This document shows, piece after piece, positions 1 to 44,227 of a stretch of DNA of 64,000 bases. The stretch's first letter is position 1. Each line of letters starts with the position of its first letter. Position numbers and translations under genes: made by a program. The notes under the pieces are model-generated. The model was not told where the DNA came from, ran no database searches, and saw nothing but the letters and a program-made list of their open reading frames with translations. This stretch comes from Dysidea avara. Lineage: Eukaryota > Porifera > Demospongiae > Dictyoceratida > Dysideidae. The stretch lies in contig NC_089273.1 in the NCBI RefSeq assembly GCF_963678975.1, positions 23,082,356 to 23,146,355 on the forward strand, given 5' to 3'.

Positions 1-560
1 CAAACTCTCTGCAGGGTGATTTTTTTGTAGCTGAACTCCCTACAGGATGGTCTTTGTAGCTGATGTCTCTACAGGTGACTTGTTTCTAGCTGATTTCTCT
101 ACAGGATGATTTCTTTGTACTTGAACTCTCTACAGGGTGATATTTTTCTAGTTGAACTCTCCACAGGGTGATCACTTCACAGTTGAACCCTCTACAAGGT
201 GGCATCTTCTCTCTGATCTTTCTACAGTGTGATTTATTTGTAGCTGAACTCTCTACAAGGTGAAGTTTTCTAGTTGAGCTCTCTTTTGTTTCTAGCTGAT
301 CTCTCTACAGAGTAACTTGTTAGTAAAGCTGAAGTGAAGTCTTTACATGGTGGATTTTGGTTGTTAAACTCTCTGCATAAAGACTTGTTTGTAGAAGAAC
401 TTCTACAGAGTGAATTGTTTGTGGCTGAACTCTCAACAGGGTGCATATATTGTTTATAGCTGAACTCTCTATAGGGTGACTTACTTCTTGCTGAACTGTC
501 TGTAAGATTAACTGTTTGCAGCTGAACTCCCTACAGAATAACTTGTAATGCAATAGAATT
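1..560 (+). repeat. 30-31-bp satellite array, right arm of FB1 copy a
   Basis: Degenerate tandem repeat with the recurring core tagctgaactctctacag followed by gtgatttgttt-like spacers, about 30-31 bp per unit. It is truncated by the window edge. The same units occur at 13130-14960 and 16976-17885 in this orientation and at 10920-12855 in the opposite orientation. The short open frames crossing it are not genes. Confidence 0.85.
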
Positions 561-1910
561 CTATGATGGAGTAAATAAATTAGCTGAATACTCTATTAGG
601 GTAACTGTTCTATTGGAGTAATCTCACATTTGCTACACGGAGTTGACTTTCGAATCATAACTCAGTGGTTTGTAATACAATTATTCTGTACTACTGCAAG
701 TACTTCTAAGAAGATTATACCAGCTATACAACGATTTTCAGCTCATTGCTCTAAGCGGTTTGCTTAATAGGCGTAAAAACTAATACTTTTTATTCATAAA
801 AATCAATCGCGTAATTGTGACACAGGTTGGGTTCAGCGTTGAAACCCGGTCGGGTCATCCGGGTCACATTTTCTCCGGGTCATCCGGGTCTGACACCGTT
901 TACAATTTATCCGGGTCTGACCCGGATTGGATCACGTGAGAAACGAAATTGTTAGTTTGACGACGTGGAACTTATAAACGCGATAGCTCTTTCGTGAGCC
1001 ACGCCCACTTATCGCATTACCAACATATGCTCAGCCACGCCTATTTGTTAGTAAGTGCAGTATGTAGCACGAAACTGAGGGTATCTATGGTGAGGGATAG
1101 CTATTGTCAGTAGGTGAAGAACGTTCTCTTTTTTTTGGTCTTCAACCTTTTCTTTTGGTCTTCAACCTACAGCTAGGCTGAAGTTGCAATATTTACTCAA
1201 CACGAATGGAACGCTCAAAATGTAGACTAGTTCTCTCGCCCGAGACTAGCCGAAACACGTCGCGGGTTTAATTAATCCGGGTCACATCCGGGTGTGACCC
1301 GGATTGCTTTCCGGGTCAGTGGGTCATCCGGGTCAGCAGTAGTGACCCGGTTTCAACGTTGGTTGGGTTTTATGTCATATCTCCATAGTCATTATCTGGA
1401 TTCGTTTCAAACCACAAAAAGTCACTCCTACGATGGTTGCTCCATCTACATAGCAATTTTCAACTCATTCCATGAAGCGGTTTACCCTGTAGGCGTGACA
1501 ACAAATCGATCTTGTTTTACGCAAATAATCGATCATAACTCCTGAACCATTCATCGGATTTGCACCAAATGTGATGCTAGGATTCGCCTTTGGACTCTTT
1601 TTCTGCGTACCGAAATTCAAGGCGATCGCAGTACGTATTTGCGTTTATAGCAATTTTTGCAAGTGTGCGAAAACACGAAGAAAGAAATTGAAACTATGGC
1701 AGCTCGTATGTCGGATATGGCTGGAGTGATTTCCTTCAAATTTGGTATGTAGACATATCTGGCTTACGGACAACTCGGTAGCAAATTTGGTTCCAATCGG
1801 AAAAGGAATCACCGGGATACAAAGGTGTGAAAATGACTTTTTCTTCCTGTCAATATACCCACGGTGTGGCTCGCCGGATTTTTGGGCCGCACGATACATA
1901 TCGTGTGTCT
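561..1910 (+). repeat. Conserved non-coding tail of FB1 copy a
   Basis: After the satellite comes a conserved tail that recurs at 14961-15740 and 17886-19093 in the same orientation, and as the reverse complement at 5259-5661 plus 10499-10920. Landmarks in order are a CTCTATTAGGG motif, a cgtgcgtaattgtgacac-like block, a block with ggttccaatcgg, and a terminal block ttgggccgcacgata followed by a short palindrome ending in tcgtgtgtct. No open frame is conserved between copies, so it is treated as non-coding. A hAT-like MITE interrupts it at 834-1361. Confidence 0.8.
834..1361. mobile_element. hAT-like MITE with 8-bp target duplication
   Basis: The 528-bp insert begins CAGCGTTGAAACCCGG and ends in the near-perfect inverse CCGGTTTCAACGTTG. 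Direct copies of gttgggtt flank it at 826-833 and 1362-1369. Inside are several copies of the word ccgggtcatccgggtc in both orientations. There is no coding potential. The 8-bp duplication and the CA start fit the hAT superfamily; the assignment is an inference. A decayed relative lies near 31298-31475. Confidence 0.8.
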
Positions 1911-2149
1911 TATTATCGTCTTTTCTACACGGCTATTTCTAACTAGCTTAGTTTCACCTAACATTTAATCATTGTACATCAACAGAATCACCTACTAACG
2001 GCGATCAAAATGGCCTTTATTTAAAGCCTATGACTTCTACTACTGTGAAAATATAGCTAGTTGTTTATTGCCTATTCACCTGGACGTACATATAATGATG
2101 GCTGGCTTTTGTGTAAGGACCTACATGTATTACGCTGGTCTCCAAAGGG
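1911..2149. other. Low-copy sequence, nothing recognised
   Basis: AT-rich sequence between the end of FB1 copy a and a MITE fragment. No convincing frame, RNA gene or repeat was seen. Confidence 0.4.
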
Positions 2150-4408: not shown

Positions 4409-5094
4409 CTATCTAATTAAAAACAGCTAAGCTGTAAAAAAAGGTGCGGCCCCAAAACGGCCATGGTGAAAAAAGATGTGAAATCCAAGGTGGTGGCCAA
4501 GAAATGGCTGTGATGGTAGCAGCGGCGGAGGAAGTAGTTGATATGAGTAGGGGCTCCGCTGGGCTGACCCAGACTTATTTCTATAGTTTGGTAAGGTGAG
4601 ACCAAAAAGAAAAGGTCACAACCAACTAACAAGAGTTTTCCACCGCACCAGCTACCATTTCTAGCTGATAAACTACATAAAAATCCTTACATAGCTCGCT
4701 GCACACTAACTACTTTATTAGAGTGACTGCTCTATTAGAGATCTCGATCTTTATCACGGTCTTCAAGAAAGATAATTTCGGTGTGATATCATTCTGAGGG
4801 GGGCTAAGCCCCCCCTCAGCAGACCGAAGGGGTGCTTTAGTCCCCTAGCCCCCCCCTTCCGCCGCCTATGGATGGTAGGTTAGTGGTAAAAATTTTAATA
4901 ACGACAATCCAGGTGAATTTGGTGCCGCTTGATCTTAGCACAAAGTTCACCTGAATTGTTGTTATTAAAATTTTTACCATTAACCTACCATCACAGCCAT
5001 TTCTTGGCCGCCAACTTGGACTTCACATCTTTTTTCACCATTGCCTTTTTGGGGCCGCACCTTGTTTTACAGCTTGGCTGTTTTTGATTAGATT
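4409..5094. repeat. Hairpin element H, copy 1
   Basis: The inverted repeats start tctaattaaaaacagctaag and end in the complement near 5070-5094. The arms contain the shared words gctgtaaaaaaaggtgcggcc and ccaagaaatggctgtgatgg, and the centre is a short loop around 4920-4950. A second copy lies at 16483-16815 and half a copy at 12962-13125. A hAT-like MITE is inserted at 4520-4870. No coding potential. Confidence 0.8.
4520..4870. mobile_element. hAT-like MITE inserted in hairpin H
   Basis: This 351-bp insert is flanked by gatggtag at 4512-4519 and 4871-4878. The ends are CAGCGGCGGAGG and the inverse of CATAGGCGGCGGA, imperfect but alike. A CTCTATTAGAG motif and a C-rich tract near the right end (about 4795-4860) lie inside. 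The 8-bp duplication and CAGNGGCGGA-like ends are typical of hAT. The related element at 46410-46704 has a CCGCCTATG end too. Confidence 0.75.
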
Positions 5095-5258
5095 TCACTT
5101 CTTTTTGTATTTGTATACCCCAAATCCGGTCATAGGCCGGCTTTGGGGATTTTCTTTTCTTTACCACAGGAAGAAAAGATGAAGCAAATGTTACATACTT
5201 TAAATATTTCTGATTTATCAGTAAATGTACAAATTATATATATATATAATACATATCA
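5095..5258. repeat. Linker that accompanies hairpin H
   Basis: This contains a small hairpin (cggtcataggccggctttgggg) and an AT-rich stretch with a TA microsatellite near 5228-5250. The first part recurs, reversed, at 12885-12960 and in weak form at 16816-16860. It joins H to FB1. Confidence 0.55.
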
Positions 5259-5667
5259 AGACACACGATAGTGTGTCGTGCGGCCCAAGAAGCCGGCGCG
5301 CCACACCGTGAGTATATTAACAGGAAGAAAGAAAACGCAATTTTCACACCTATGTAGCTCTGTGATCCCTTATCAGATTGGAACCAAATTTGCTAGAGAC
5401 GTGCCGCCCAGTTAGGGGAGTCTACATTCCAAATTTGAAGAAAATCGCTCCAGCCATTTCCGAGATACGAGCGAACACAATTTCGTTTGAATTTCTTCTT
5501 CATTTTGTACACTCCGCAAAATTCGCCATGAAACACGAATTCGTACTCGGATTGGGCTGAAATTTGGCACACTTAAAGGGCTCATTAAGGCGGATCTCCG
5601 TACCAACTTTGGTAGGAATCCGATGAACATTAACGGAGTTATGACCGATTATTTGCGTAAACTTCCT

Positions 5668-6202
5668 TTTCAGTGGAACATGCTTTATCCTGTCCCAAGA
5701 GTGGCTTACCTTCTATCCGACACAATGAGATCAGTGATCTAACTGCTACCCTGTTGACTGAAGTATGCTCTTAGGTAGCTGTTGAACCAGACCTCCAGCT
5801 GGTTTCACAGCAGGACTACCCTGCTTCTGCCAATATCCAAGATAGTGCCCGTCTTGACATCGCCATGAATGGTTTTTTGGGGTGGAAGAAGTGAAAGATG
5901 TTTTGTGGATGTGCGGGTGTTCAATCCTCTGGCTGCTTCTAATGCGTCCTCATCACTGGCCTCCTGTTATCGGAGGCACGAGAACATTAAGATACGTGCG
6001 TATGCTCAGAGAATTCGTGAGAAGGAGCATGCCTCTTTTACCCCCCTGGTAATGTCTGCCTCTGGTGGTCTGGCTCATGAGGCTTCTGTTTTTTATCAAC
6101 GCTTGGCTCATCAACTTTCAAACAAGTGGGGCGATGATTACTCTGTTGTCATGGGGTGGTTGAGGTGCTGTCTATCTTTTTCTCTCTTGCAGTCCTCCAT
6201 AC
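5668..6202 (+). pseudogene. C-terminal domain of a LINE R reverse-transcriptase protein, first part
   Basis: Read in order, the translation gives FSVEHALSCPKSGLPSIRHN, then ARLDIAMNG, then FVDVRVFNPLAA, CYRRHE, HASFTPLVMSASGG and WLRCCLSFSLLQSSI. From memory, such a block follows the reverse transcriptase in a widespread family of metazoan retroelement proteins. The H-x3-C piece and the later D...DVR spacing resemble the Cys-His motif and restriction-like endonuclease core of R2-type LINEs; that reading is an inference. An in-frame stop lies near 5774 and the frame shifts near 5870, so the copy is dead. The last codons continue after the nested element at 10150-10254. Confidence 0.7.
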
Positions 6203-6543
6203 ACTGTTAAAAAAGGTTCTTTATTAAACACCTCTTGGGGTGTTATATCTACAATTGTTGTCAGGCTCCCCCTTAGGGTGTCCCAGTACACCCTTAAAGG
6301 AGTTTCAGTAACACTCACCAACGGTGTTCCAATAAACTTTAAGGTGGTATACATAACACCCCTAGGTGTTTCAATAATGTCTTTAGCAGTGTTCAGTAGT
6401 CTTACAATTTTATTAGGGTGATATTAAAAGTACAAGCATTGAAAACTGCTATACATAATGTATAAACTTAATTTCATAAGAGTTTATTGTTCTATACACA
6501 TTATCTCCAGATTGGAATAACAGTCTCCAGTTGCAACAGCTAC

Positions 6544-6681
6544 TCATCTTCTTAGTACTGGAATGGAACTAGTGATGGAAGACTCAGCTACCCTCATCTT
6601 CAGGATCGCGTCCGGTAATAACCAGAAATGGTTCTGACTGACAATTTGAAACTGCACAGAGTCTACATCGACATCACGTCA
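6544..6681 (-). pseudogene. Possible last exon of an unrecognised gene in the 6203-10149 element
   Basis: On the minus strand a good acceptor (tttttatttgcag) precedes an open stretch of about 45 codons. It contains VDVDSVQFQIVSQNHFWLLP and SSIPVLRR and ends at a TGA (6544-6546). It lies downstream of the other minus-strand exon-like pieces at 7078-7166, 7221-7305, 7463-7690 and 8132-8211. No family was recognised. The frame is assumed from openness only. Confidence 0.35.
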
Positions 6682-6756
6682 CTGCAAATAAAAGAATAAA
6701 AATATATAACATATAACAAGCATGACAATAGGTACATATTTCAAGGAACTATAGTC

Positions 6757-6905
6757 TTGGCCGTATACCGCACATTACAAAATTTTGGTGATTTTACTCG
6801 AGAAGGAATTGGTGGATAATAATTGGTGAATAGTTGTGTCATATTGCATTTTTGGTGAATCAAAATCATTTTGCCAAATTAGCCAAAATTTTCTCCCACC
6901 GTACA
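6757..6905. mobile_element. Short inverted-repeat MITE-like sequence
   Basis: The sequence gtataccgcacattacaaaa on the left and the complement of accgtacag with ccaaaattttctccc on the right form weak inverted ends around an AT-rich core with repeated ttttggtga words. No clear target duplication. Confidence 0.35.
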
Positions 6906-7077
6906 GTAAGTAGTACTGGACTATTATTGATTTTGGATGCCAAGAAGCACTACAGCCTATCTAGAGTTGTAAATTTATATGCTAATACGTAATTAATGCT
7001 TCATGCAGTGAAACTATTAGAGGTTTTATATGTCAACCAAACATAACTTTGTGAATGTACACTACAGGTAAACATAC

Positions 7078-7166
7078 CTCAAAATTCTTAAGAAAACACT
7101 ATCTTTGCAAACCATCTTGGATGTAACAGATGACAAATCAGCTTCCAAGTACACAATCAGTAACAT
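7078..7166 (-). pseudogene. Exon-like segment of the minus-strand gene in the 6203-10149 element
   Basis: This 89-bp segment lies between an acceptor (ttattttctcag) and a GTATGT donor after AATTTTGAG. It reads MLLIVYLEADLSSVTSK then MVCKDSVFLRIL. It follows the segment 7221-7305 after a short intron-sized gap of about 54 bp. The junction phase with that segment is not clean, so either the boundaries are misread or the gene has decayed. Confidence 0.35.
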
Positions 7167-7220
7167 CTGAGAAAAATAAGACCTTCTTACATACATTCAG
7201 TATTCTTAATTGTTACTTAC

Positions 7221-7305
7221 CATCTGGGTGGACAAAAATCATTAGCTACATTCACCAAGAAGTTCCAATAGCTTCTTAAATTATGGCCTGGTCTTACACT
7301 AAAAT
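7221..7305 (-). pseudogene. Exon-like segment of the minus-strand gene in the 6203-10149 element
   Basis: On the minus strand the acceptor gtcaacattttag is followed by an open stretch reading VRPGHNLRSYWNFLVNVAND then FCPPRW, ending at a GTAAGT donor (complement at 7215-7220). No family recognised. Confidence 0.35.
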
Positions 7306-7462
7306 GTTGACATCAATTTTGTTCTCCACATAGGCCAGTTGATAAAAATGAAGTCCTTTATACTGTCGTCAATTGGAACAGTTGCTTTAACCTTGTTTTG
7401 TATCTATATACCAAAAGAAAACATAATTTTAAAACTATAACAAACTATTATGGTACACTTAC

Positions 7463-7690
7463 CCAAGTACTTGAGTGCAAAGAGGGGAATTTTGATCGAC
7501 GACCTCTGACAAAAGTGGACATTCAGTCACTATTAAAGCCAGGCGTTCAGTAGGGTTAAATCCACTTATCTTCGAATTGTACAGTTTCTTTGCCACCCTC
7601 TTTTAATAGTCACCCTTCATGGACTGAATAGCGTTATCATACTCAGCCATCAGAAATTTCCAATCCATTGTTGTTGGACTCCATTCTCAA
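7463..7690 (-). pseudogene. Exon-like segment of the minus-strand gene in the 6203-10149 element
   Basis: The minus-strand translation contains KFLMAEYDNAIQSMKGDY, VAKKLYNSKISGFNPTERLA and LIVTECPLLSEVVDQNS, and ends CTQVLG at a GTAAGT donor (complement at 7457-7462). One in-frame stop (after GDY) interrupts it. The composition looks protein-like, with amphipathic helices, but no domain was recognised. Further upstream, about 7810-7910 also reads openly (MPRTCIIAHPKSEAYNVVCQ). Confidence 0.4.
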
Positions 7691-8131
7691 GTTTTTTAGT
7701 TGGTTCATTACTGATACTTTGATCAATTTGTTTGCTACACCCTCCTCTGAATTCTTAATTTCTAAAATAAACCAGTATATCAAGGTTTTACACTTAACAA
7801 CATACTGACACAAGTCCACTGTCCATTGTCATCCAGGACCTAGCTGGGTGCCACTTTTGAACCAGCTTCTGGCACACCACATTGTAAGCCTCTGACTTTG
7901 GATGTGCAATGATGCATGTTCTTGGCATCTGAGCTATCTCCTGTCTGCCCTGCCAGTTGTCAAACCAGTGGAAATGGCCTCTAATATTGTCACGAGAATG
8001 TATAAAGTTCTACTGAAGACACCAGTCTCATTACGCTGTTCAGAAGTGAACACTTCTAATCGTCACCAGTTCTTTCTTCACAGCTATAGATCATGTATTA
8101 TTCACGTCAAAGTTGCCTGGCCGTTACTCAC

Positions 8132-8211
8132 CTTTTCCCACTCTGGGCGCCCAAGCACTGACAGCCGCTGCAGCCGGGTACAAATCGTCTTCCACATTCC
8201 CACCGTCGATG
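8132..8211 (-). pseudogene. Exon-like segment of the minus-strand gene in the 6203-10149 element
   Basis: This 80-bp minus-strand segment reads SIDGGNVEDDLYPAAAAVSA then WAPRVGKG between an AAATTTAACAG acceptor and an AAAG/GTGAGT donor (complement 8126-8131). It is the most upstream piece seen. The plus-strand frame 7902-8480 covering it is treated as a shadow. Confidence 0.3.
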
Positions 8212-9055
8212 CTGTTAAATTTTGGTACATTTCTTTACTATCGAAAGCTGCTCGCACGTTATCGTCTCAACTGCTTCTTTCGGTGGCCATATTACTGATA
8301 TTGTGCACCTGGTCTCGCACCTGGTCTCGCACCTGGTACACGCTATATAGTGCGCACTGCTGTTCAAAAGCTGGGCATTCAATGGAATACAATTGGATCA
8401 TCAAGTCATCACTTATTTCTTGGTATATTTTGACGTTCTGGAAGGTATGCGTGCATATAAATGCCAACACACGGGCCTAGGACTGCAGGGAGTGTAGCTC
8501 AGTATCCGCTTAAATTGTTCATTGGCCTTGTCACAATCAACTTTCATTAGTGAACATGTGTTGACATCTATTAGTTCTTGTAATTTTAAAGGTCGGATCA
8601 AGTGTATGAAAAATCTTGATAGCTAAGCTTGATGTATAAATCGGACTCACAAACTGGCGTTTTGAATCACGTCACAGTGTATGATGATGACCACAAGGCT
8701 ACCCGCCGGCATCACAAAGGAAAATTGCCTTCCATTTTGAACATGATATGGAGTCTCTTAATGATATTATTACATGACCAGCTGACGACTGGAGTGATTG
8801 AAAAGATGTTGGATTATGAAGTAGCATTTAATGTGTAGCCTTGTATCAACACTGACATTACCATGCTTATATAATGGATTGCAATCCTATGGCTGACAAA
8901 GCAGTACGGCACACAGAATTATTTACTTTATCAACTGCACGTACATTCATGCTCATATCTGTGACCTCTGCCTTTTGCACAGTGTACAATTTATATTTTA
9001 GATGTCTATAATTGTACGGAATTGAATTATTATTAATGCATACTAAAATCAAATA

Positions 9056-9703
9056 TGTGACCAGATTTTACAGAACCGATCCAAATCGCACATCAGGCAA
9101 AATCAAACTAACACCACCAGTGGATAGCTACACTATCGTACTACAAGTTTTGACCCTCAGCACTACTCAAACTACACGAGGCTGGTTTTTACACACGTCT
9201 TTTCTGGGTGGTGTGGAGTGCTCAAATGGCGGTTTCAGGCCTTGTGAAGGACCTGGCTTGGCAAGAGTCAGTGGTATACTGGTGGACAGCCTTATAATGT
9301 TGGCCAGACGTGTTCTCTGTTGATTTTGCTACATATCAGCCACTAGGGAGCCAGCACAGCCCTGTAATCTCGTGTCTGGACTCCAATAATGGTCTGCCTC
9401 CATTTTGAGGTATAACTTTTGCCCTCCCCGCCACCCCCCAGCCTCCACCCCTTTGTGAGCACTCGTGATACTACTTCGCTCGTCCAACTGCTCAGATTTT
9501 CTATCTTATTTGGCGGGAAACTGTACAAGCAGCTACAAGTACTGGAAGTGGCTTGAAAGGTAACAGATTGATGCATCTTTTGTGTAAATTTCATACGCGT
9601 GCTTGCTATCCTTGGAGAGTTATGCTGGCTTCAATTCTTTAAAACCGTTTATCTCGGAACTTCTAATGTGCGATTTGGATCGCTTTTCCAAAATCCAGTC
9701 ACA
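9056..9703. mobile_element. TGTGAC-type MITE, TA-flanked, 648 bp
   Basis: The terminal repeats begin TGTGACCAGATTTT and end with the near inverse AAAATCCAGTCACA. Subterminal blocks gatccaaatcgcacat and atgtgcgatttggatc are exact inverses. TA flanks both ends, as expected for Tc1/mariner-type non-autonomous elements. The interior is not shared with the 15783 family. No credible gene. Confidence 0.75.
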
Positions 9704-10149
9704 TATACAGAATGTACAAACACTATTAGTACTTGTAAAAGCAGTTATTGACGTACAATCTAGCAAGCTACAGTACGTTGATGGATTGAGTGTGGATATA
9801 GTATTTCTGATCTGTTCGTCTGCATGCTGAGCTCAGTGTAACATTGTTTGGGCTTCACTGTTGCACTTAACTAAATCAGCAACACTGCATGAGTTTATAA
9901 TCCTATAGCATCACTGTATGGTGTGTAGACTCATTCCTACATTAAAAGAAATTCATTTCAAATGTATCAGTATAGAGTGTACAATAACACCTTTAATACA
10001 CCCCAAAGGTGCTTCACTACACCTATTACAATCCAATAACATTATAGGCGTAATATAACACCCCTGGGTGTAAATGTACACTTGTAAAGGTGTAGGTGTT
10101 CCATAAACACCTTTGTCAGGGTGTAACTGAACACCTCTGTTTTAACAGT

Positions 10150-10254
10150 ATACAATGCATCCGCGGAGCCCGCTCATCCATCGGTCACTATGTTAAGACT
10201 GCCCCAATTGTGGAGCTGATTAGGGCAGAGTCTCAGTTTCAAGAAAATTTCTGA
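10150..10254 (+). pseudogene. C-terminal domain of LINE R, last codons
   Basis: This continues the frame broken by the 6203-10149 element: IQCIRGARSSIGHYVKTAPI, then VELIRAESQFQENF and TGA at 10252-10254. The CIRGARS motif is the usual end of this domain and is also seen, as CIRGSRSRSK, in the minus-strand copy at 18294-18470. Confidence 0.65.
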
Positions 10255-10257
10255 TTA

Positions 10258-10498
10258 GGGCAGAGTCTGATTAGGGCAGAGTCTCAAGGTTTCTGCTCTT
10301 GCTATTACTTTGGAGAGGTCTAGGCCATAAACTCTTGCATACAAAATTTCAAACTTGCAGCTTTCTTCGTCTGGCTGCAGGAGCTGCAAAAATGGCCTGT
10401 CGTGGACTAAGAAAGTCCCGGTTTGTCCAGCACAGGCCATTTATGTGCTGGGGTGGTAGGCAAGGGCAGTCCATCAAGCCCGGGTAAAAAAAAAAAAA
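10258..10498 (+). repeat. FB2-derived 3' segment with poly(A) in the retroposed insert
   Basis: From about 10285 to the A-run the sequence is the reverse complement of 4090-4310. It spans both the FB2 arm (ggagaggtctaggccataaa) and the 88-bp fragment, junction included. Two other LINE R 3' ends in the window (18124 and 34641) have a different tail (gggagtgccattagggccg), so this tail is not the usual one. Confidence 0.7.
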
Positions 10499-10919
10499 TT
10501 ATTTGCGTAAAATAAGGTCGAAGGTCTGTCACGCCTACAGGGTAAACCTCTTGGAGGAATCAGTTGCAAATTGATATGTAGATGGAGCAACCATCGTAGG
10601 AGTGCCTTTTTTTGTGGTTTGAAAGGAATCGAGATAAAGACCATGGAGATATGACACAAAACCCAACCTGTGTCAAAATTACGCGATCGATTTTTATGAA
10701 TAAAAAATTATTAGTTTTCGTGTCTACCAGACAAACCGCTTAGAGCAACGAGCTGAAAATCTGTATGTAGGTGGAATAATCATCATAGAAAGTTCTTGCA
10801 GTGTACAGAAGAATCAGATTACAAATCACTGAGTTATGATTCGAAAGGCAACTACGTGCAGCAAATGCGAGATCGAGATACTCTAATAGAACAGTCACCC
10901 TAATAAAGCATTCAGTTAC

Positions 10920-12855
10920 ACGTATAATTTACTCAGTTATATTACATTGCAAGTTATTCTGTAGGGAATTCAGCTACAAACAAGTCACCCTGTAGTCAGA
11001 TCAGCTAGAAGAAGGTACCTAATAGAGAGTTCATCTACAAAGAAGCCATCATGTAGAGAGTTCAGCTCAAATAAATCACCCTGTAGAGAATTCAGCTACA
11101 AACAAATTGCCATGTAGAGAGATCAGCTAGAAGAAGTTACCTTGTAGAGAGTTCAGTTACAAAGAAACAATCATGAAAAGAGTTTAGCTGCAAACAAATC
11201 ACCCAGTAGAAAGTTCCGCTATGAACAGATCACACTGTAGAGAGTTCAGTTAGAAACAAGTCATCCAATAGAGAGATCAGCTAGAAGAAGTTACCTTGTA
11301 GAGAGTTCAGTTACAAAGAAACAATCATGCAAAGAGTTTAGCTGCAAACAAATCACCCAGTAGAAAGTTCACGCTATGAACAGATCACACTGTAAAGAGT
11401 TCAGTTAGAAACAAGTCATCCTGTAGAGAGTTCAGCTAGAAGAAGTTACATTGTAGACAGTTCAGCTACAAAGAAACCACCATGTAAGAGAGTTCAGCTG
11501 CAAACAAATCACCTGTAGAGAGTTCAGCTAAGAACAAGTTACACTGTAGAGAGATCAGCTAGAAACAAGTCATCCTGTAGAGAGTTCAGCTAGAAGAAGT
11601 TATATTGTAGAAAGTTCAGCTACAAAGAAACTACCATGTAGAGAGTTCAGCTGCAAACAAATCGCCCTGTAGAGAATTCACTACAAACAAATCACCCAGT
11701 AGAAAGAAGAAGTTACCTTGTAGAGAGTTCAGCTACAAACAAATCACCCTGTAGAGAGTTCAGCTAGAAACATGTCACCCTGTAGAGAGATCAGCTAGAA
11801 ACAAGTCACCTGTAGAGAGTTCAGCTAGAAGAAATTACATTGTAGAGAGTTCAGCTACAAAGAAACTACCATGTAGAGAGTTCAGCTGCAAACAACTTTC
11901 CCTGTAGAGAATTCAGCTACAAACAAATCACCCTGTAGAAAGTTCAGCTAGAAACAAGTCACCCTGTAGAGAGTTCAGCTAGAAGAAGTTACATTGTAGA
12001 GAGTTCAGCTACTAAGAAACTACCATGTAGAGAGTTCAGCTGCAAACAAATTGCCCTGTAGAGAATTCAGCTACAAACAAATCACCCTGTAGAAAGATCA
12101 GCTATAATAAGTTACCTTGTAGAGAATTCAGCTACAAACAAATCACCCTGTAGAGTGTTCAGCTAGAAACAAGTTACACTGTAGAGAGATCAGCTAGAAA
12201 CAAGTCACCCTGTAGAGAGTTCAGCTAGAAGAAGTTACATTGTAGAGAGTTCAGCTACAAAGAAACTACCATGTAGAGAGTTCAGCTGCAAAGAAATTAC
12301 CCTGTAGAGAATTCAGCTACAAACAAATCACCCTGTAGAAAGATCAGCTAGAAGAAGTTACCTTGTAGAGAATTCAGCTACAAACAAATCACCCTGTAGA
12401 GAGTTCAGCTAGAAACAAGTCACCCTGTAGAGAGATCAGCTAGAAACAAGTCACCCTGTAGAGAGTTCAGCTAGAAGAAGTTACATTGTAGAGAGTTCAG
12501 CTACAAAGAAACTACCATGTAGAGAGTTCAGCTGCAAAGAAATTACCCTGTAGAGAATTCAGCTACAAACAAATCACCCTGTAGAAAGATCAGCTAGAAG
12601 AAGTTACCTTGTAGAGAATTCAGCTACAAACAAATCACCCTGTAGAGAGTTCAGCTAGAAACAAGTCACCCTGTAGAGAGATCAGCTAGAAACAAGCCAC
12701 CCTTAGAGAGTTCAGCTAGAAGAAGTTACATTGTAGAGAGTTCAGCTACAAACAAATCACCCTGTAGAGAGTTCAGCTACAAACAAGTCATCCAGTAGAG
12801 AGATCAGCTAGAAGGATCACCTTGCAGAGAGGTCAGCTACAAAGAAATCACCCTG
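10920..12855 (-). repeat. 30-31-bp satellite array, left arm of FB1 copy b
   Basis: Tandem units of the type gtagagagttcagctacaaa plus caaatcaccct, with variants gatcagctagaag and ttcagctgcaaac. A higher-order period of 246 bp (eight units) is visible: the variant ttcagctgca recurs at 12035, 12281 and 12527. This is the reverse complement of the array at 13130-14960. Confidence 0.9.
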
Positions 12856-13129
12856 CTTCATCTTTTCTTCTTCCTGTAGTAAAGAAAAATGACAGGTTAA
12901 AAATCCCTAAAGCCGGCCATAGGCCGGCTTTGGGGTATACAAATACATAAAGAAGTGTAATCTAAAGCGGCACAAAATTCACCTGATTTGTAATTATTAA
13001 AATTTTTACCATTAACCTACCATCACAGCCATTTCTTGGCCGCCAACTTGGATTTCACATCTTTTTTCACCATAGCCTTTCTCAGGGCCGCACTCTTTTT
13101 TTACAGCTTGGCTGTTTTGGATTAGATAT
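12856..13129. repeat. Core of FB1 copy b: linker and partial hairpin H
   Basis: The linker with aagccggccataggccggct (near 12911) is followed by the loop and right arm of hairpin H (about 12962-13125, ending in acagcttggctg). The left arm of H is missing here. It separates the two inverted satellite arrays. Confidence 0.7.
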
Positions 13130-14960
13130 TTATTACAGAACACTCTACACGGTGGTTTCTTTATAACTGAACACTCTACAAAATGACTTCTTCTAGCTGA
13201 TATTTCTACAGGGTGATTTGTTTGTAGCTGAATTCTCTACATGATGGTTTCTTCGCAGCTGAACTCTCTACAAGGTAACTTCTTCATGCTGATGTCTCTA
13301 CAGAGTCACTTGTTTGTAGTTGAACTCTCTACATGATGGTTTCTTTGTAGCTGAACTCTCTACAAAGTAGCTTCTTCTAGTTGATGTCTCTGCAGTGCCA
13401 GCTGAACTCTCTACATGGTGGTTTCTTTGCAACTGAACTCTCTACAAGGTGGCTTCTTCTAGCTGATATTTCTACAGGATTTGTTTGTACTGTAGCTGAA
13501 CTCTCTACATGATGGTTTCTTTGCAGCTGAACTCTGTACAAGGTAACTTTTTCAAGCTGATGTCTCTACAGGGTCACTAGTTCGTAGCTAAACTCTGTAC
13601 ATGGTGGTTTCTTTGTAACTGAACTCTCCACAAGGTAATTTCTTCTATCTCATTTCTGTACAGGGTGAATTGTTTGCAGCTGAACTCTCTACAAGGTAAC
13701 TTCTTCTAGCTGATCTCTCTATACAGGGTAATTTGTTTGTAGCTGAACTCTCTACATGGTGGTTTCTTTGTAACTGAACTCTCTACAAGGTGACTTCTTT
13801 TAGCTGATCTTTCTACAGGGTGATTTGTTTGTAGCTGAACTCTCTACAAGGTAACTTCTTCTAGCTGATCTTTCTACAGGGCGATTTGTTTGTAGCTGAA
13901 TTCTCCACTATGTAATTTGGTTGCAGCTGAACTCTCTACATGGTGATTTCTTGTAGCTGAGCTCTCTACAAGGTGACTTCTTCTAGCTGAACTCTCTACA
14001 GAGTGATCTTTTCGTAGCTGAAACTCTCTACAGGGCGATTTGTTTGCAGCTGAACTCTCTACATGATGGATTCTTTGTAGCTTAACTCTCTAAAAGGTGA
14101 CTTCTTCTTGCTGAACTATCTACAGGATGAATTGTTTATAGCTGATCTCTCTGCATGACAGTTTCTTTGTAGCTGAACTCTCTACAAGGTAACTTCTTCT
14201 AGCTGATCTTTCTACAGATCAATTTGTTTGTAGCTGATTTCTCTACAGGATGATCAGTTTGCAGCTGAACTCTATACATGGTGGTTTCTTTGTAGTTGAA
14301 CTTTCTACAATGTGACTTCTTCTAGCTGAACTCTCTACAATGTGATCGCTTTGTAGATGATCTCTCTACAGAGTGATTTGTTTGCAGCTGACCTCTCTAC
14401 ATGATGGTTTCTTTGTAGCTGAACGTTCTACAAGGTAACTTCTTCTAGCTGATCTCTCTACAGGGTGAAATGTTTGCAGCCAAACTCTCTGCAGGGTGAT
14501 TTAAATGCTCTACAGGGTGATTTCCTTGCAGCTGAACTCTCTACATGATGGTTTATTTGTAACTGAACTCTCTACAAGGTAACTTCTCCTAGCTGATCTT
14601 TCTACAGGGTGGTTTGTTTGTAGCTGAATTCTCTACAGGGTGATTTATTTGCAGCTGAACTCTCTACAGGCTGATCTTTTCGTAGCTGAACTCTCTCAAG
14701 GGTGATTTTTTCAGCTGAACTCTACATGATGGTTTCTTTGTAGCTGAACTCTCTACAAGGTGACTTCTTCTAGCTAATCTCTCTACAGGTTGATTTGTTC
14801 GCCATTGAACTCTCTACATGGTGCATAGTTTCTTTGTAACAGAACTCTCTACAAGGTGACTTCTTCTCTACAGGATGATTTGTTTCTAGGTGAACTCTCT
14901 ACAGGGTGCTTTCCTGTAGCTGAATTGTCTAACAGATTAACTAGTTGTAGCTGAATTCCC
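13130..14960 (+). repeat. 30-31-bp satellite array, right arm of FB1 copy b
   Basis: Tandem units around gtagctgaactctctaca with spacers such as tggtggtttcttt, aggtaacttcttcta and gggtgatttgttt, which alternate. It is less regular than the left arm; a strict higher-order period is not obvious by eye. Confidence 0.9.
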
Positions 14961-15740
14961 TACAGAATAACTTGTAATGTATTATAATTCTTTAATGGAG
15001 TAAGTTATAAACGTATCAGAATGCTCTATTAGGGTGACTGTTCTATTAGAGTATCTCGATCTCGCATTTGCAAAACTTAGTAGGCTTTCGAATCATGACA
15101 CTGTGGTTTGTAATCCGATTCTTCTGTACTACTGTAAGGACTTTCTATGATGATTATTCCAGCTACACACCGATTTCAGCTCATTGCTCTAAGCGATTTG
15201 CCTGGTAGGCGTGAAAACTAACAGTTTTTTATTCATAAAAATCGATTGTGTAATTGTGACACAGTTTGGGTTTTGTGGCATATCTCCATGGTCTTTATCT
15301 CGATTATTTTAAAACTACAAAAAGGCACTCCTACGATGGTTACTCCATATACAAAGCAATTTTCATTCCTTCAAGGAGTTTACCCTGTGGGCGTGACAGA
15401 CCTTCGACCTTATTTTACGCGAATAATCGATCATAACTCCGTGAATGTCCATCGGATTCCTACCAAAGTTGGTACTGAGATCCGCCTTAATGAGCCCTTC
15501 AAGTGTGTCAAAGTTCAGCCCGATTGGAGCACGTCTTCGTATCTCGGAAATGGCTGGACCGATTGTCTTCAAATTTGGTATGTAGACTCCCGTAACTGGT
15601 CTGTAGTAAATTTGGTTCCAATCGGATAAGGGATCAAAAACCTACATAGGTGTGAAAATTACGTTTTCTTTCTTACTGTTAATATATTCACGGTGTGGCG
15701 TGCCGGCTTCTTGGGCCGCACGACACACTATCGTGTGTCT
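14961..15740 (+). repeat. Right tail of FB1 copy b
   Basis: Conserved tail as described for copy a, uninterrupted here and so the best reference for insertion sites in the other copies. The short frames through it, for example 15246-15629, are not conserved between copies. Confidence 0.8.
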
Positions 15741-15782
15741 TTATAGCATTTCAAGGTATTTATTTTTTGTTCTACTCTTAAA

Positions 15783-16408: not shown

Positions 16409-16482
16409 AATGTAGAAATTCAATTTAAACTAATTATTAATGTGTGACTTATTTACAACATTTGCTGAAAATGATTTGTACC

Positions 16483-16975
16483 TAATACAAAACAGCAAAG
16501 CTGTAAATAAAGCGTGCGGCCCTCAAAAAGGCTATAGTGAAGAAAGATGTGGAACCCAAGGTGGCGGCCAAGAAATGGCTGTGATGGTAGGTTAATGTCA
16601 AAAATTTAAGTTATGACAATTAAGGTGAATTTGCGTTGCCTCCTCCACTAGGATTCGGCACCAAATTCACCTGCATTGTCGTAATTTAAAATTTTGCCAT
16701 TAACCTACCATCACAGCCATTTCTTAGCAGCCACCTTGAATTTCACATCTTTTTTCACTATTGTCTTTTTGGGGGCTGCACTTTTTATTTTACAGCTTGG
16801 CTATTTGGATTAGATTTCACTTCTTTATGTATTTGTGTACACCAAACTTTAAGGCTTCCTTCTAACTTGTTTTTTTTCTGCAGGAATTGCGAACAAAGGA
16901 AGAAATGTTGTGTACAGTTTTTTGTCTCATTAAAAATATTTGTATATTTAACAATGAAAGATAATTATACTGTAG
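16483..16975. repeat. Hairpin H copy 2 with following linker
   Basis: The hairpin 16483-16815 has arms starting aaacagcaaagctgtaaa and ending tttacagcttggct, with a loop near 16635-16665. The linker to 16975 is AT-rich with a T-run and ctgcag. It precedes the satellite of FB1 copy c, the same order as in copy b. Confidence 0.75.
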
Positions 16976-19093
16976 GTAAAAGGTGACTTCTTATACATAA
17001 CTGAACTGTAGCTGTAACTCCCATTGTTTGTAGCTGAACTCTTTTCAGAGTGACTTGTTTCTAGCTGAACTGTCTACATGGTGATTTGTTTCCAACACAT
17101 ATTTCTACAGGATGATTTGTTTGTAGCTAAACTCTCTACAGGATAGTTATTTTGTTGCTGAACTCTGCAAGGTAATTTCTTCTAGCTGATCTCTATACAA
17201 TGTAACTTCTTGTAGCTTATCTGTCTACTCGGTGACTCGTGTCTAGTTGTACACTCTACAAGGTGATTTGTTTGTAGCTGAATACTCTACAGGGTGATTT
17301 GTTTGTAGCTGAACTCTCTACAGGATGGTTTCTTTGTTGTTGATGTCACTACAGGTGACTTCTTTCTAGCTGATCTCTCTACAGGATGGTTTCTTTGTAG
17401 CTGAACTCTCTACAGGGAGATTTTTTTCTAGCTGAACTCTCTTTAGGGTGATTACTTCACAGCTGAACCCTCTACAAGGTGGCTTCTTCTATCTGATCTC
17501 TGTACAGTGTGATTTGTTTGTCTACAAAGTGATGTTTTCTAGCTGAGCTGCATCTTATTTCTAACTGATCTCTCTACAGAGTAACTTGTTAGTCTAGCTG
17601 AAGTCTATACATAGTGGATTTTAGTTGTTAAACTCTCTGAATGAAGACTTGTTTGTAGCAGAACTTCTACAAAGTAATTATTGTTTGTAGCTGAACTCTC
17701 TATAGGGTGCACGACTTATTTATAGCTGAACTCTCTTCATTGTGACTTGTAATGCTCTGAATAACTACAGCAATATATTTGTAGCTGAACTCTACATAGG
17801 GAAACTTGCTTCTTGTTAAACTGTCTATAAGATTAACTGTTTGCAGCTGAACTCCCTAAAGAATAAATTGTAATGTAATAGAATGCTATAATTGAGTAAA
17901 TAAATTAGCTGAATGCTCTATTAGGGTGACTGTTCTATTAGAGTATCTCGATCTCGCATTTGCTACACGGAGTTGGCTTTCGAATCATATCTCAGTGGTT
18001 TGTAATCCAAGTATTCTGTACTACTGTAAGGACCTTCTATGAAGATTATTCCAGCTATACACCGATTTTCAGCTCATTGCTCTAAGCGGTTTGCCTAGTA
18101 GGCGTAAAAACTAATACTTTTTTCCCCTGCGGCCCTAATGGCACTCCCTTCCTCCCACACATCTCTATAGAATCAGAATGCTAAGAAAAAATATTTGAAA
18201 AATTTATTGTAATTTACAGAAAAGGACCTACATAGAACCTACAGCATGCCCAGGGTTCAATGGGCTGGCAAGTTCTCCTCAGCAACAGCAAGATCAACTG
18301 CTGGAGACACACGGACACTTGGATCTTGAGCGTGATCCCCTGATGCATATAACTGAAGAACGGAGCACTGAAAACCCCAAACTACAACGGAGCCAGCCCA
18401 ACACCACAGAATATGGGAATTTCCACTTCTCGCTCAGCAGGTGGGCAAGATGTTTATAAGTGGTGGTAGCAGCCCTTCCCATACCACCTGTAAACTGATA
18501 CTTCTTTATCCATAAAAATCGATCGCATAATTGTGACACAGATTGGGTTTTGTGTAATATCTCCATGGTCTTTATTTCGATTTCTTTGAAACCACCAAAA
18601 GGCACACCTACGATGGTTACTCCATCTACATAGCAATTTTTAACTCATTTCATGATGCGGTTTACCCTGTAGGCGTGACAACAAATCGATCTTGTTTTAC
18701 GCGAATAATCGACCATAACTCCTGAACCATTCATAGGATTTGCACCAAATGTGATGTTAGGATTCGCCTTTGGACTCCCTTTCTGCGTACCGAAATTCAA
18801 GGTGATCGGAGTACGCATTTGCGTATTATAGCAATTTTTGCAAGTGTGCGATAGCACTAAGAAAAAAAATCCAAACTTTGGAAGCTCGTATCTCAGATAT
18901 GGCTAGAGTGATTTCCTTCATATTTAGTATGTAGACTTCTCTGGCTGGCAGTCAACTCTGTAGCAAATTTGGTTCCAATCGGATAAGAGATCACCGAGAT
19001 ACCAAAGTGTGAAAGTGACGTTTTCTTTCTTCCTGTCAATATACCCAGGGTGTGGCGCGGCTTCTTGGGCTACACGACACACTATCTTGTGTC
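16976..19093 (+). repeat. FB1 copy c, right arm
   Basis: Satellite units run 16976-17885, then the conserved tail to the terminus cacactatcttgtgtc at about 19093. A LINE R fragment interrupts the tail at 18124-18491. No matching left arm is seen upstream of the hairpin, so the copy looks one-sided or truncated. Confidence 0.75.
18124..18491 (-). mobile_element. LINE R 3' fragment inserted in FB1 copy c
   Basis: On the minus strand it encodes GGMGRAATTTYKHLAHLLSE, then KWKFPYSVVLGWLRCSLGFS, VLRSSVICIRGSRSRSK, then a 3' UTR ending gggagtgccattagggccg and an A-run (T-run at 18118-18123). Flanks aaactaatacttttttt-like (18108-18123) and aaactgatacttcttt (18492-18507) form a slightly diverged 14-16-bp target duplication. 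It is severely 5'-truncated. Confidence 0.8.
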
Positions 19094-19454
19094 CGAGGGT
19101 TCCGTCACGACCCTAGAATCCTGTACGAGTTTCCGAATCCCACGAAATTCCAGGCAAGATTCCAGATTCCAACCCAAGATTCCAGATTCCAAGTAAAATT
19201 CCATATTCCATATATCCAGTTACAGCTAGCTACGGAACTAGCTGTGAAAAGCTCAATAATACTCTAGAAAGCAAGATAAAAGGTTTTCTGAGCGTAAGGA
19301 TGATCCAGAAAGCTGCTTTTTATCTTGCAACAAGAAAGTAAATATATAGATCTAATGTTTACAAACTTTGTATACAATCAATTTAATTTAAAACAGATTA
19401 TTAAAATTCAATTATCATAATATAAGCACAATGACAATTAGCTACCACAACAAT

Positions 19455-38570: not shown

Positions 38571-39405
38571 ACAGTGAAACCTCATTTATAGGGCCAGCTC
38601 TGGGACCAAAAAAATTGGCCTGAATAACAAGGTGGCCTTATTAATGAGGTCATAAACTACTGTTTATCTATATTTTGAACCTTCTATAGGTGGCCAATAT
38701 AATGAGGTGGTCTTATTAAAGAGGTGGACACTAAGTGAGGTTTCACTATACATATGGTTAACAATGGTGAACAATATTAATGGTTAACAATAATATGCTG
38801 AAACCTTACTCAGGTCACTTCTTGTGGCAGATTGCTCTGTACAACTACTGTTTATCTATATTTAGAACCTTCTATAGGTGGCCAATATAATGAGGTGGTC
38901 TTAAAGAGGTGGACACTAAGTGAGGTTTCACTATACATATGGTTAACAATGGTGAACAATATTAATGGTTAACAATAATACGCTGAAACCTTACTCAGGT
39001 CACTTCTTGTGGCAGATTGCTCTGTACAACTACTGTTTATCTATATTTAGAACCTTCTATAGGTGGCCAATATAATGAGGTGGTCTTATTAAAGAGGTGG
39101 ACACTAAGTGAGGTTTCACTATACATATGGTTAACAATGGTGAACAATATTAATGGTTAACAATAATACGCTGAAACCTTACTCAGGTCACTTCTTGTGG
39201 CAGATTGCTCTGTACAACTACTGTTTATCTATATTTAGAACCTTCTATAGGTGGCCAATATAATGAGGTGGTCTTATTAAAGAGGTGGACACTAAGTGAG
39301 GTTTCACTATACATATGGTTAACAATGGTGAACAATATTAATGGTTAACAATAATAAGCTGAAACCTTACTCAGGTCACTTCTTGTGGCAGATTGCTCTG
39401 TATAC
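38571..39405 (+). repeat. 188-bp tandem repeat seeded by a MITE-like sequence
   Basis: Four copies start with ctactgtttatctat at 38657, 38845, 39030 and 39218 (spacings 188, 185, 188). Copies 2-4 are almost identical. Each contains ggacactaagtgaggtttca, the right end of an inverted-repeat element whose left end cagtgaaacctcatttatag is at 38573. The sequence before copy 1 therefore looks like the original MITE. Confidence 0.85.
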
Positions 39406-40520: not shown

Positions 40521-42286
40521 TATAATATCCTATGGATAATGACTTAATCAATTTCACTTATAAGGACCAAAAGTGTAAATTTTTACACGTTGGGCTGACA
40601 GCCAACTGCCTATGTCTGAAGCAGTGCATTTGGTGCTCTAACAGATTGGCTGCCACCTTGCTGCCGGTACTCACTGTCTCATATGCTGTTCACACTAAAT
40701 CCATCTCTATAGCCAGTTAGAACAGCATGCTTCTTACCATTTTAAGGCCGCAAAATGCAGCCACCTCCTTAACAAGCTAGGTCAGAAATTTTGTCTGTAC
40801 CTGAATAATGACCAGTTTTCACTGTACTATTAGTGATTAGTGATCATGGAGGATTATTTATTAAGATACTAAGATATACAAATGCTATAACCTCTAAATA
40901 TAGCAGTAAAATTTTTACCATGGTCCAATAGAGCGATAACTTTTAGGCCACAAAATTATGTTAAAATGTCCGCAACTTCCGCGGGGCAACAAGTGGGCAA
41001 ATTCAATGGCGGAGCACCTTCAAGAGGCTGCAACTTGGCTTCTGGTGCTCCATTCGGCATGAAACTTACTCAGGACATAGATCAGAAGTTGGGAAACATG
41101 ATGAAAAACATCACTTGGACATCAGGTTGGTTTAAAAGGTAGCTAGTAGCTTTGATAATAATATAAATCAATACTAAATGCTCACAGTGGGCATAGAGAC
41201 AAACTCTGCCCAATCTTGTTGTCAGGTTGGTTTTACCCAGGTTAAAAAGATAAAACGGCTTCCCACGCAATTATTAGCCATAACTCGCCTAGCACGGATC
41301 AAACTAACCTGCACTACTTAAATATCTGTTATACTATTCTCTTCCTTGTTCCTGACAACGTGATTTCATTTAGAAAGACAGTCTCAACAAACCTCAGGCA
41401 AAGTAAACTCATGCCCCAAAGGCATGCGTACATTTTCTGCCCCAGGGAAGTGATTATGTAACGACTGTGACGTCAGGTGTTACCACTCTATCTCTAATAA
41501 TCGTGAGAGACTCTACTGTACAAACTGAGGTACAAACACATGTTTTATGTGCTAATCGTCTTTTTACAATTAAGTTATACAACACAAATACATGTATAGT
41601 TAGACTCACCAATTGTGTCTCAGTAGCACTAAATCCCTTCTACATGAAAAGACAAGCAATGAGACAACAGCCTCTCAAAGATCACAGCCTATTCTGGTGC
41701 GCTTGTTTAGTAGTAATATAAATTTTAACAGCGTTTATTCACTACAGGACATAATTACGTGCCCCTCTATTGTCTCTGTACATACTTGCCATTTCTCTAC
41801 TATTCTTATTTCATTTCACAAGAGTTCCTATTGATATGGGCAAAGGCGTGGTTTCTCCGCTTGAATTAGTCCATGCTTGAAGTAGATCGAGATACTCTAA
41901 CAGAGCAGTCAATCACTATAACAGAACAGTCACATTTCTACAAGTGCTGTATTTTATATTGTAAAGTCTGTAAGTAGCTAGTGATTTAAATTATATAATT
42001 CAGTGTTAGGCAGAAGTTGAAAATATGCTGTAATATTGATTGCTGTGTTACAGCTGTTTTGTGACTGCTCTATTAGAATATCTAGATGCAGTACAAGATG
42101 AAAGGCGAAGTGTTACTAAGTGTTTACTAATTAATATGGGTGTTAGTTGACTGCAGTTGCATGTCACTAAAATTACAGTTGTATTTTAATATTCTATCAC
42201 TGTAATCTGGAGTTTCTTTCAAAACCATGGAAACTCACCTATTGTTTTCAACAGTGTATGCTTACTCTAACAAAAATTATTGAAAT
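40521..42286. other. Low-copy region
   Basis: No gene was supported. 40730-40830 contains a decayed end like the gtgaaacctc MITE (cagttttcactgtact). CTCTAACAGAGCAGTCA-type motifs occur at 41892 and 42066. Confidence 0.35.
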
Positions 42287-42910
42287 CCCATCCAAAAACA
42301 GCTTGTAGCTGTAAAAAAGTGCATGTCCAAGTAAAGCAGAATTAACTGCGACAAAAAGTAATGATATCATAATGCAGCCATGTGTGAGGTGTGCAAGTTG
42401 TAAAATTAATATTAGCTAATCAGATAATACAATATTATTGTTAAAGTGTTAATGAGAACTATGTGATGCTGCTAGTTTTTAGTGTGCGAGCATCTTCATA
42501 AATGCCACATAAATTTGATTCTCAATAAAGCAATGTGTATAGATTCTCTGATAGCAATAAAATAGTTTGAGTTTGGCCGCCTTTCCTGTGTATGGCAATG
42601 CTACGAACAAAGGAAAGGCAACCAAACTCAAACTATTTATTGCTATCAGTGAATCTATCATTGCTTTTTTGAGAATCAAATTTATGTGGCATTTATGAAA
42701 ATGCTCATGCACTTAAAAACTAGCAGCATCACATAGTTCTCATTAACACTTTAATAATAATATTGTATTATCTGATTAGCTAATATTGATTTTACAACTT
42801 GCACACCTCGCACATGGCTGCATTAGGATATCATTACTTTTTGTTGCAGTTAACTCTGCTTTACTTAGACGTGCACTTTTTTTTACAGCTACAAGCTGTT
42901 TTTGGATGGG
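42287..42910. repeat. Foldback element FB3, about 300-bp arms
   Basis: The left half 42287-42590 is the inverse of 42610-42910, with outer words cccatccaaaaacagcttgt and acaagctgtttttggatggg. The centre is tggcaatgctacg flanked by ggccgccttt and aaaggcaacc. The arms contain the agctgtaaaaaagtgc word, similar to hairpin H. Non-coding. Confidence 0.85.
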
Positions 42911-44227
42911 TTTACAATACAGAGTTGTGTATACACAGGTACATTGCACAGCTGCAAATGTAATAAGTTAAGATAGTATGCCTAAAGTAGTACAAGTGTA
43001 ATTTAATGTATCCAGTGGCAAGGTGTCCCCAAGCGGGCTTCCAGGAGTTTCAGGGAACCACTTTAGATTTTACACACTTCTTGGAACATGTACTGCAGAT
43101 TTCAAATATTTTGAATTCATCATGAAAAGGACTCTTTACACAAGTTTAGTGATAAGGGTTGATATACTCTAACAAAGCAGTCAGGAAATATTAATTAATC
43201 AACATGTGATAAAACAGTCATTTAACTGCAGTGGAAACCCATTTTCAAAATTCCTGTGTACTATCCTGAGTGGGAAATAGTGAATAGTATGTATGTGTAC
43301 TTGGACATATTTTAACAAACTTGCATTGTAGCACAAGTAGCAGTACTGTAGAACTACTACAGATTAGCAAGTCATAGTAAATTATTGTTATGCTGAGTGA
43401 ACTGGTTCATGTGTGTATGCTAACATTAACAAATTCATACACTTTTATTTCATAATTTTCATACATAGCACTGTGATAGTGATGACTGCATTGACTGTTG
43501 TTGAGTTATTGTTGTATTGATTTGTCTTCTGAAATCTGAAACGAATGCTGCCAAGATTGCTACTATGACATTTGCTGCTGTTATTTATGTTGCTAAAAAA
43601 AACAACTATCTATTAAGATAAATACTATATAATACAACAGTGAATATATTATAACATTGACACTTTTAAAATGTATGCACATATACACACACATACACAC
43701 AATTATGCCTTCATGTATCAATAAATATACCAAAATCTTTATTATGATCATAATTATGTTGTTTACAATATGTGACTGGATCTACAAAAACTGTTCCTAT
43801 CGCCGAGACAGGAAGTTTGATTTTTTCTTACAAACACAAAGCTTAATGAATGCACTATGAAGTTTCACTGCCACAGTCGACCAAGGTAAAGTGGTCTGCT
43901 TTTGCTGGTTGTTTTTTAAGCACAGTGGCGATCCGTATGAGTGGTCTGGGTTTTTGATGGGACCCTGGCCAACCAGGAGATGGCTGTATGTGGTTGTATA
44001 GCTCCATGGTGCTGGACAATGACCTGTGCTATAATTCCTTTCATTTTAGCAGTAGTGGCTCAATAATGTGAAATTAAATACACAATTTATTTGGTGAGAA
44101 TTCACCAGTAACCAGTTACATAGGTTACAAAGTTACACAACACTATTAATGAAATATCACTTTTAAATAGGTGATTAAATTAATGTGAACTTTAATTATA
44201 GTACCACATTATCTTCAGTAAGTATTA
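42911..44227. other. Low-copy region
   Basis: Includes a one-sided TGTGACTGGATCTAC MITE-like end at 43771, a CA-rich microsatellite at 43678-43701 and a degenerate motif at 43154. No gene seen. Confidence 0.35.

Follow-up and report, generated by a model that had tools for sequence, protein, structure and literature searches.

Positions 5,259 to 15,740 of the 64,000-nucleotide stretch of Dysidea avara DNA analysed here (the window) contain a tail sequence and a 30-31-bp satellite in inverted arrangement, which raises the question of whether the satellite is spread through the genome by a mobile unit and, if so, by which kind. An earlier note on this DNA had read the region as a giant foldback element, i.e., two inverted satellite arms and a core forming one mobile unit. 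The inverted likeness itself is far above chance, as the comparison of the window with itself pairs 10498-12829 with 13143-15427 (78% alike) and 5254-5470 with 15537-15745 (89% alike), in both cases in opposite orientations. In all likelihood, the region consists of copies of a non-autonomous rolling-circle (Helitron-type) element that is very abundant and has a 31-bp satellite as its interior. Each unit of this element is asymmetric, with a 5' end lying in a palindrome of about 320 bp, the 31-bp satellite and a tail of about 0.9 kb, and the units U1 to U4 are laid out in the window as follows:

1-1911, plus strand: U1, with satellite at 3-284, tail and a diverged 3' terminus; its 5' side is lost at the window edge
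4412-5255, plus strand: 5' part of U2, the host of the nested insertion, with the 5' terminus TCTAATTAAAAACAGC, the 5' palindrome and the start of the satellite region
about 4520-4870: insertion of about 350 bp that breaks the U2 5' palindrome
5256-13126, minus strand: U3, lying in reverse orientation within U2, where it separates A from T, and composed of 3' terminus (5256), tail, satellite, half palindrome and 5' terminus (13126)
5649-5661 and 10499-10511: 13-bp duplication TTATTTGCGTAAA bordering the insertion in the U3 tail
5662-10498, plus strand: insertion of 4.8 kb within the U3 tail, with a run of 13 A at its end
10959-12855, minus strand: 31-bp satellite array belonging to U3, for which a 123-bp period was also obtained
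12965-13127, minus strand: single surviving arm of the U3 5' palindrome, the "hairpin core" of the earlier note
13127-15743, plus strand: remainder of U2, with the 31-bp satellite and then the tail up to the 3' hairpin terminus
13138-14866, plus strand: 31-bp satellite array of U2
16480-19095, plus strand: U4, a more diverged copy with a diverged 3' terminus, composed of palindrome (16482-16818), satellite (17024-17750) and tail (17780-19095)

Insertion of U3, in reverse, into U2 accounts for every base of the window palindrome. U3 is bounded on both sides by standard termini, and its removal restores an intact unit, so that U2 consists of 4412-5255 together with 13127-15743. The joined flanks of U3 align without a break to three of the 20 genomic loci sampled below, namely L013 (94% over 781 columns), L011 (90% over 752) and L014 (87% over 747). 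Removal of U3 leaves AATACATA directly followed by TATTTATTACAG; an exact copy of these 20 nt is present in 12 of the 20 loci (L010, L011, L012, L013, L014, L017, L018, L021, L022, L024, L025 and L027); the restored site was also aligned in L010, L011, L013 and L014. Since relatives carry the restored 20-mer exactly, U3 was inserted between A and T with neither loss nor duplication of bases. The insertion that later split the U3 tail is, by its poly-A run and the 13-bp duplication at its borders, a retrotransposed sequence; the frame at 7896-8480 inside it had no Pfam match. Several details of the earlier note thus have to be revised. The inverted satellite and tail arms exist, but the hairpin core at which they were said to meet is a lone palindrome arm of U3; the left arm, taken as continuous, is interrupted at 5662-10498, and the unit of the right arm is not contained in 5259-15740, as the other end of U2 lies outside, at 4412-5255. 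The stretches 1-1911 and 16976-19093 each contain a single unit and no foldback; the former is truncated at the window edge, and the latter starts at about 16480 rather than at 16976. The association noted at these three places was nevertheless correct, the same tail being found beside the 30-31-bp satellite in each.

The tail at 15000-15740 was used as a genome-wide query, as the earlier note had proposed in the expectation of copies with shared termini, and gave 5659 first-look candidates. Forty of these were scored and yielded 76 matches, two of which span the whole query, while 38 end at query position 534-543 and the other 36 cover the remainder of the query, from 537-540 onward. Palindrome, satellite and tail probes were then used to map twenty 10-kb loci, each surrounding a high-ranking tail match. 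Since they were picked via tails, these loci represent well-kept tails and not all copies; two of them (L019 and L020) are not independent because their flanks are common to both. At least one unit with the order palindrome, satellite, tail in one orientation was present in all 20 loci, the palindrome being matched only to about half in L024 and L028. In the 16 units measured, the two ends lie 1.5 to 6.8 kb apart (a 17th, in L026, was left out as its 3' end was not recognised), and the longest satellite array, in L012, comprises 118 copies over 3.6 kb. The only frame of at least 130 aa in the unit sequences of the window (15222-15629, 135 aa) had no Pfam match; the element is non-autonomous and has no coding frame of known domain.

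A lone asymmetric unit is found in 12 of the 20 loci (L009, L010, L011, L013, L014, L016, L018, L019, L022, L023, L024 and L026), with small tail fragments or extra termini nearby in L010, L016, L022 and L026. Two loci (L025 and L028) contain a second unit in the same direction, and six (L012, L015, L017, L020, L021 and L027) contain a second unit head-to-head, L012 and L020 having a further same-direction unit besides; these head-to-head counts depend on how the loci were cut, as they reach about 7 kb in the 5' direction and about 2 kb in the 3' direction. The six head-to-head loci and the presence of inverted arms are what the foldback explanation has in its favour, but it appears exceedingly improbable in view of the lone units, of the nested window pair with its uninterrupted U2 and of the unequal head-to-head gaps, which, measured between 5' ends, amount to 46 bp (L012), 0.6 kb (L017), 0.8 kb (L021) and 1.8 kb (both L020 and L027), being measurable in five loci as one 5' end is absent in L015. 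Moreover, among 100 of the 1443 exact 3' termini of the genome, all of them on contig 1, 16 neighbouring pairs lie within 15 kb of each other, compared with 5.0 expected under uniform placement and a maximum of 13 in 2000 random sets, and these are oriented in the same direction (10), tail-to-tail (5) and head-to-head (1). Units therefore cluster, though not as foldbacks. The idea that the element itself favours head-to-head placement, suggested by the six loci, was dropped as the terminus list has no such bias. In raw sequence, a nested insertion of such elements mimics a giant foldback.

In all 20 tail-selected loci, the satellite lies inward of the tail and is, therefore, carried as cargo; with constant ends and many copies, this bears out the proposal that the satellite travels within a mobile unit. 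It could alternatively be imagined that an independent satellite array was later invaded by tails and palindromes, which would make the association secondary. The satellite is indeed abundant, with 18,006 exact 26-mers genome-wide, and free arrays may exist since the sampling was tail-selected. Such a history is nonetheless extremely unlikely, considering that in the same loci the satellite is held between palindrome and tail in fixed orientation and that unrelated host DNA starts at both ends of the unit.

The termini are well defined. The 5' end reads (A)TCTAATCAAAAACAGC, also given as (A)TCTAATCAAAAACAGCTAAGCTGTAAAAAAAGGTGCGGCC, and a script found A immediately 5' of TC in 23 of 24 5' ends, including two (both in L027) in which the match begins a few bases inward of the start, with A still preceding the aligned start; the remaining one is that of U4, which reads ACC. 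The 3' end reads TTGGGCCGCAC GACACACTATCGTGTGTC TTGA(T), i.e., a hairpin followed by four bases. Among 21 3' ends recognised by a strict motif, which missed, among others, those of U1, U4, L009, L018, L021, one end of L020 and one of L022, the next bases are TGAT in 19, TCAT in one and TTAT in one; in L023, the 3' hairpin is lost. When folded, the 3' end of L013 gave a z of -2.5, with 4 of 200 shuffles equally good. A subterminal inverted repeat, exact over 9 nt, joins the two ends, with GTGCGGCCC on the 5' side and GGGCCGCAC on the 3' side, directly before GACACACTATCGTGTGTC. The match is a short one. Genome-wide, the 27-mer of the 3' end occurs 1443 times exactly and 12,231 times with up to three mismatches, in agreement with many copies sharing termini, and the 25-mer of the 5' end occurs 311 times exactly and 22,116 times with up to three mismatches; reversed-pattern controls gave 0 in all four counts. 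That 5' matches outnumber 3' matches by about 1.8 to 1 fits a palindrome that displays the 5' end twice, though the two patterns are perhaps unequal in sensitivity.

The constant target duplication anticipated by the earlier note did not materialise. There is none at the restored U2/U3 site, the single verified empty site, which lies inside the element itself, and a script count found no flanking repeat of at least 3 nt in 12 of 16 units. The other four have a 9-bp direct repeat resembling a target duplication (ACCCCAGTA, L013), a 7-nt repeat (L010) and a 6-nt repeat (first unit of L025), both within TA runs, and a 3-nt repeat (L009). Around L014, a second empty site inferred from the reading frame would be one base shorter than predicted by insertion between A and T, a model that leaves both this one-base ambiguity and the 9-bp repeat of L013 unexplained. 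When the joined flanks of the 16 units were searched in the fetched sequence, no further empty site was found. These observations also bear on whether the unit could be an ordinary terminal-inverted-repeat (DDE) transposon or a MITE with an internal satellite. Besides the 9-bp repeat in one of 16 units, the MITE-like symmetry of the 5' palindrome points in that direction, as do two families of stand-alone palindromes with similar end motifs in the same window:

42278-42919: stand-alone palindrome family, with an end motif close to GCTGTAAAAAAAGGYGCGKCC
44228-45044: stand-alone palindrome family, with an end motif close to GCTGTAAAAAAAGGYGCGKCC

The two ends of the unit, however, differ in sequence apart from the 9-nt subterminal match, and with no duplication at the restored site and most units lacking a flanking repeat, such a transposon is a very unlikely explanation.

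The 5' palindrome is an unusual part of the Helitron-type element. In 14 copies, its two arms share 89 to 98% identity across 147 to 162 columns, and the palindrome of L013, folded as single-stranded DNA, reaches -181.6 kcal/mol compared with a shuffled mean of -39 (z -41). A longer pattern, in which one arm runs on into conserved sequence of the unit interior, is found exactly 119 times; as about 155 would be expected, i.e., half of the 311 exact arms if these are assumed to be inner arms, the palindrome is largely part of units. It shows an outward-facing 5' terminus on either side. The stand-alone palindromes could in turn be two opposed Helitron-type starts, i.e., true foldbacks moved by the rolling-circle route, one of which would have replaced or captured the 5' end of a Helitron and given rise to the satellite carrier. 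This is a rather doubtful scenario; if true, the satellite carrier would have two possible copying directions via the captured palindrome. A palindromic 5' end of about 320 bp is uncommonly long for known Helitron-type elements, and among the open-access papers surveyed, no title or abstract opening was seen to describe a long palindromic 5' end for a Helitron. If needed for mobility, this 5' end would depart from the usual anatomy of Helitrons in a way that can be tested.

The Helitron-type reading is founded on the asymmetric ends, the insertion between A and T, the absence of a duplication at the restored site, the 3' hairpin and the subterminal repeat. The genome also encodes rolling-circle machinery, as judged from 150 scored matches to the Helitron Rep domain (Helitron_like_N), all above the cut-off and many of them lying in open frames longer than 1000 codons; both Rep frames tested were confirmed, and one (L029) additionally has the start of a PIF1 helicase. 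When the 3.5-kb loci of 20 Rep matches were probed with the tail and the 5' end, no autonomous copy with the ends of the element was found. The Rep match L043, the only one of the 20 with a tail nearby, was considered as a partner and rejected, being a truncated Rep fragment separated by unrelated DNA from the neighbouring tail copy, and apparent 5' boundaries among the Rep loci were read as coding tandem repeats. In the proposed mechanism, a Rep-helicase acting in trans would nick the 5' end, and one strand would be peeled off and copied through the satellite until the process stops at the 3' hairpin; such copying of a single strand is suggested by the kinship with rolling-circle transposons. 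Every transposition would then seed a new satellite array, and the arrays may afterwards lengthen, shorten and homogenise by slippage or unequal exchange, in keeping with the range of unit lengths given above.

Compared with known systems, the sponge element combines features of several groups. It resembles the canonical Helitron1 type, as described for this group and for Helraiser (PMC4067079; PMC4778049), in its 5' TC, its insertion between A and T, its 3' hairpin and the absence of a target duplication, the latter based on one verified site and accompanied by a 9-bp flanking repeat in one of 16 units. Instead of a 3' CTRR preceded at about 11 nt by a hairpin, the sponge element has a hairpin that lies 4 nt from the end and is followed by TTGA, and the subterminal inverted repeat and the palindromic 5' end set the sponge element further apart from this type. 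Asymmetric inverted ends with hairpins are also described for the Helitron2-type FoHeli of Fusarium oxysporum (PMC5148889), one group of which inserts between T and A, so that a start at TC or TTC is ambiguous, as in the sponge element. FoHeli is fungal, includes coding elements and has a short 5' hairpin, and a satellite is not mentioned in the passages concerned (PMC5148889).

DINE-1/HINE elements and Helentrons, as portrayed in PMC4067079, likewise possess subterminal inverted repeats near both ends and a short stem-loop after the 3' one, and DINE-1/HINE are non-coding and high in copy number, with tandem repeats in some copies. In the sponge element, a palindrome follows the 3' subterminal repeat, which is exact over 9 nt, shorter than the 11 bp with which families were defined (PMC4067079), and coding capacity is lacking as far as frames of at least 130 aa are concerned. 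The palindromic subterminal repeats of mite HINEs measure 12-15 bp (PMC4067079), compared with about 320 bp for the sponge palindrome. DINE-1/HINE elements and Helentrons are reported to use a TT target with variable T runs, and the autonomous Helentron to carry an endonuclease (PMC4067079); insertion into TT was not seen in the sponge element, which has an A-T target with no duplication at the restored site. Because Helitron1 features (A-T target, TC) are mixed with those of Helitron2/HINE (subterminal repeat, hairpins), without CTRR or TT, the element is termed Helitron-type and not HINE.

A close parallel in terms of the satellite is Cg_HINE of the Pacific oyster, in which satellite-like arrays form the central repeats and are described as being propagated by the elements (PMC7492417). 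According to the same account, Cg_HINE is, like the sponge element, a non-autonomous rolling-circle element with subterminal inverted repeats and a 3' palindrome, has no target duplication and contains genome-spread satellite-like arrays at the same position (PMC7492417). Its monomers are mostly 140-180 bp long in arrays mostly of up to five copies (29 in the longest), its targets are T-rich or TT, and its subterminal repeats of 11-12 bp are accompanied by a short complementary inverted repeat (PMC7492417), whereas the sponge element has a 31-bp monomer in up to 118 copies, an A-T target and the 5' palindrome of about 320 bp. The spread of satellites by Helentrons has thus already been published for the oyster, and the sponge, whose 551-Mb assembly contains in the order of ten thousand copies, represents a further genome in which satellite dispersal is explained by riding in rolling-circle-type elements, here with a variant anatomy.

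Unusual copies of the Helitron-type satellite carrier were found outside the window. In one genomic locus (L016, 750-1111) the element's 3' terminus stands three times in tandem at a spacing of 74-75 bp, perhaps because termination was repeated or skipped, and in another (L013) the unit is flanked by a 9-bp direct repeat, ACCCCAGTA, at locus positions 4510-4518 and 7919-7927, in which it is unlike the other 15 of the 16 units measured. Within the window lie the following features:

4520-4870, insertion of about 350 bp within the 5' palindrome of the carrier unit U2
38655-39402, 188-bp unit, four tandem copies, 98% alike
42278-42919, stand-alone palindrome, 642 bp
44228-45044, stand-alone palindrome, 817 bp
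47238-48872, 27-bp satellite array
52650-58633, BEL/Pao-type LTR retrotransposon, recognized by direct repeats and the domains of its open frame
58915-61363, 27-bp satellite array
62688-63116, palindrome of about 430 bp, 94% (self-comparison)
63119-64000, 27-bp satellite array directly adjoining the preceding palindrome

The insertion in U2 has ends resembling CAGCGGCGG/CCGCCGCC and is flanked on either side by an 8-bp duplication, GATGGTAG. The retrotransposon, with direct repeats of 260 bp at 99.2% identity in self-comparison and an open frame of 1823 codons between them (Peptidase_A17, RVT_1 and integrase domains), was probably active recently.

The stretch 62688-64000 is possibly a second satellite carrier, sharing the palindrome-satellite design of the 31-bp one. 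The other 27-bp arrays look as if they abut a terminal-inverted-repeat element; TAGGGCTGGGCGG starts where the first ends, and its reverse complement finishes where the second starts.

Genome searches showed both stand-alone palindromes to be repeated, as distinct families. For the longer, 40 of 1315 first-look candidates were scored; its ends carry GCTGTAAAAAAAGGCGCGTCC, similar to the satellite carrier's 5' end motif. For the shorter, whose end motif also resembles the carrier's 5' end, 40 of 897 were scored, matching on both strands. The genome does hold foldback-type elements.
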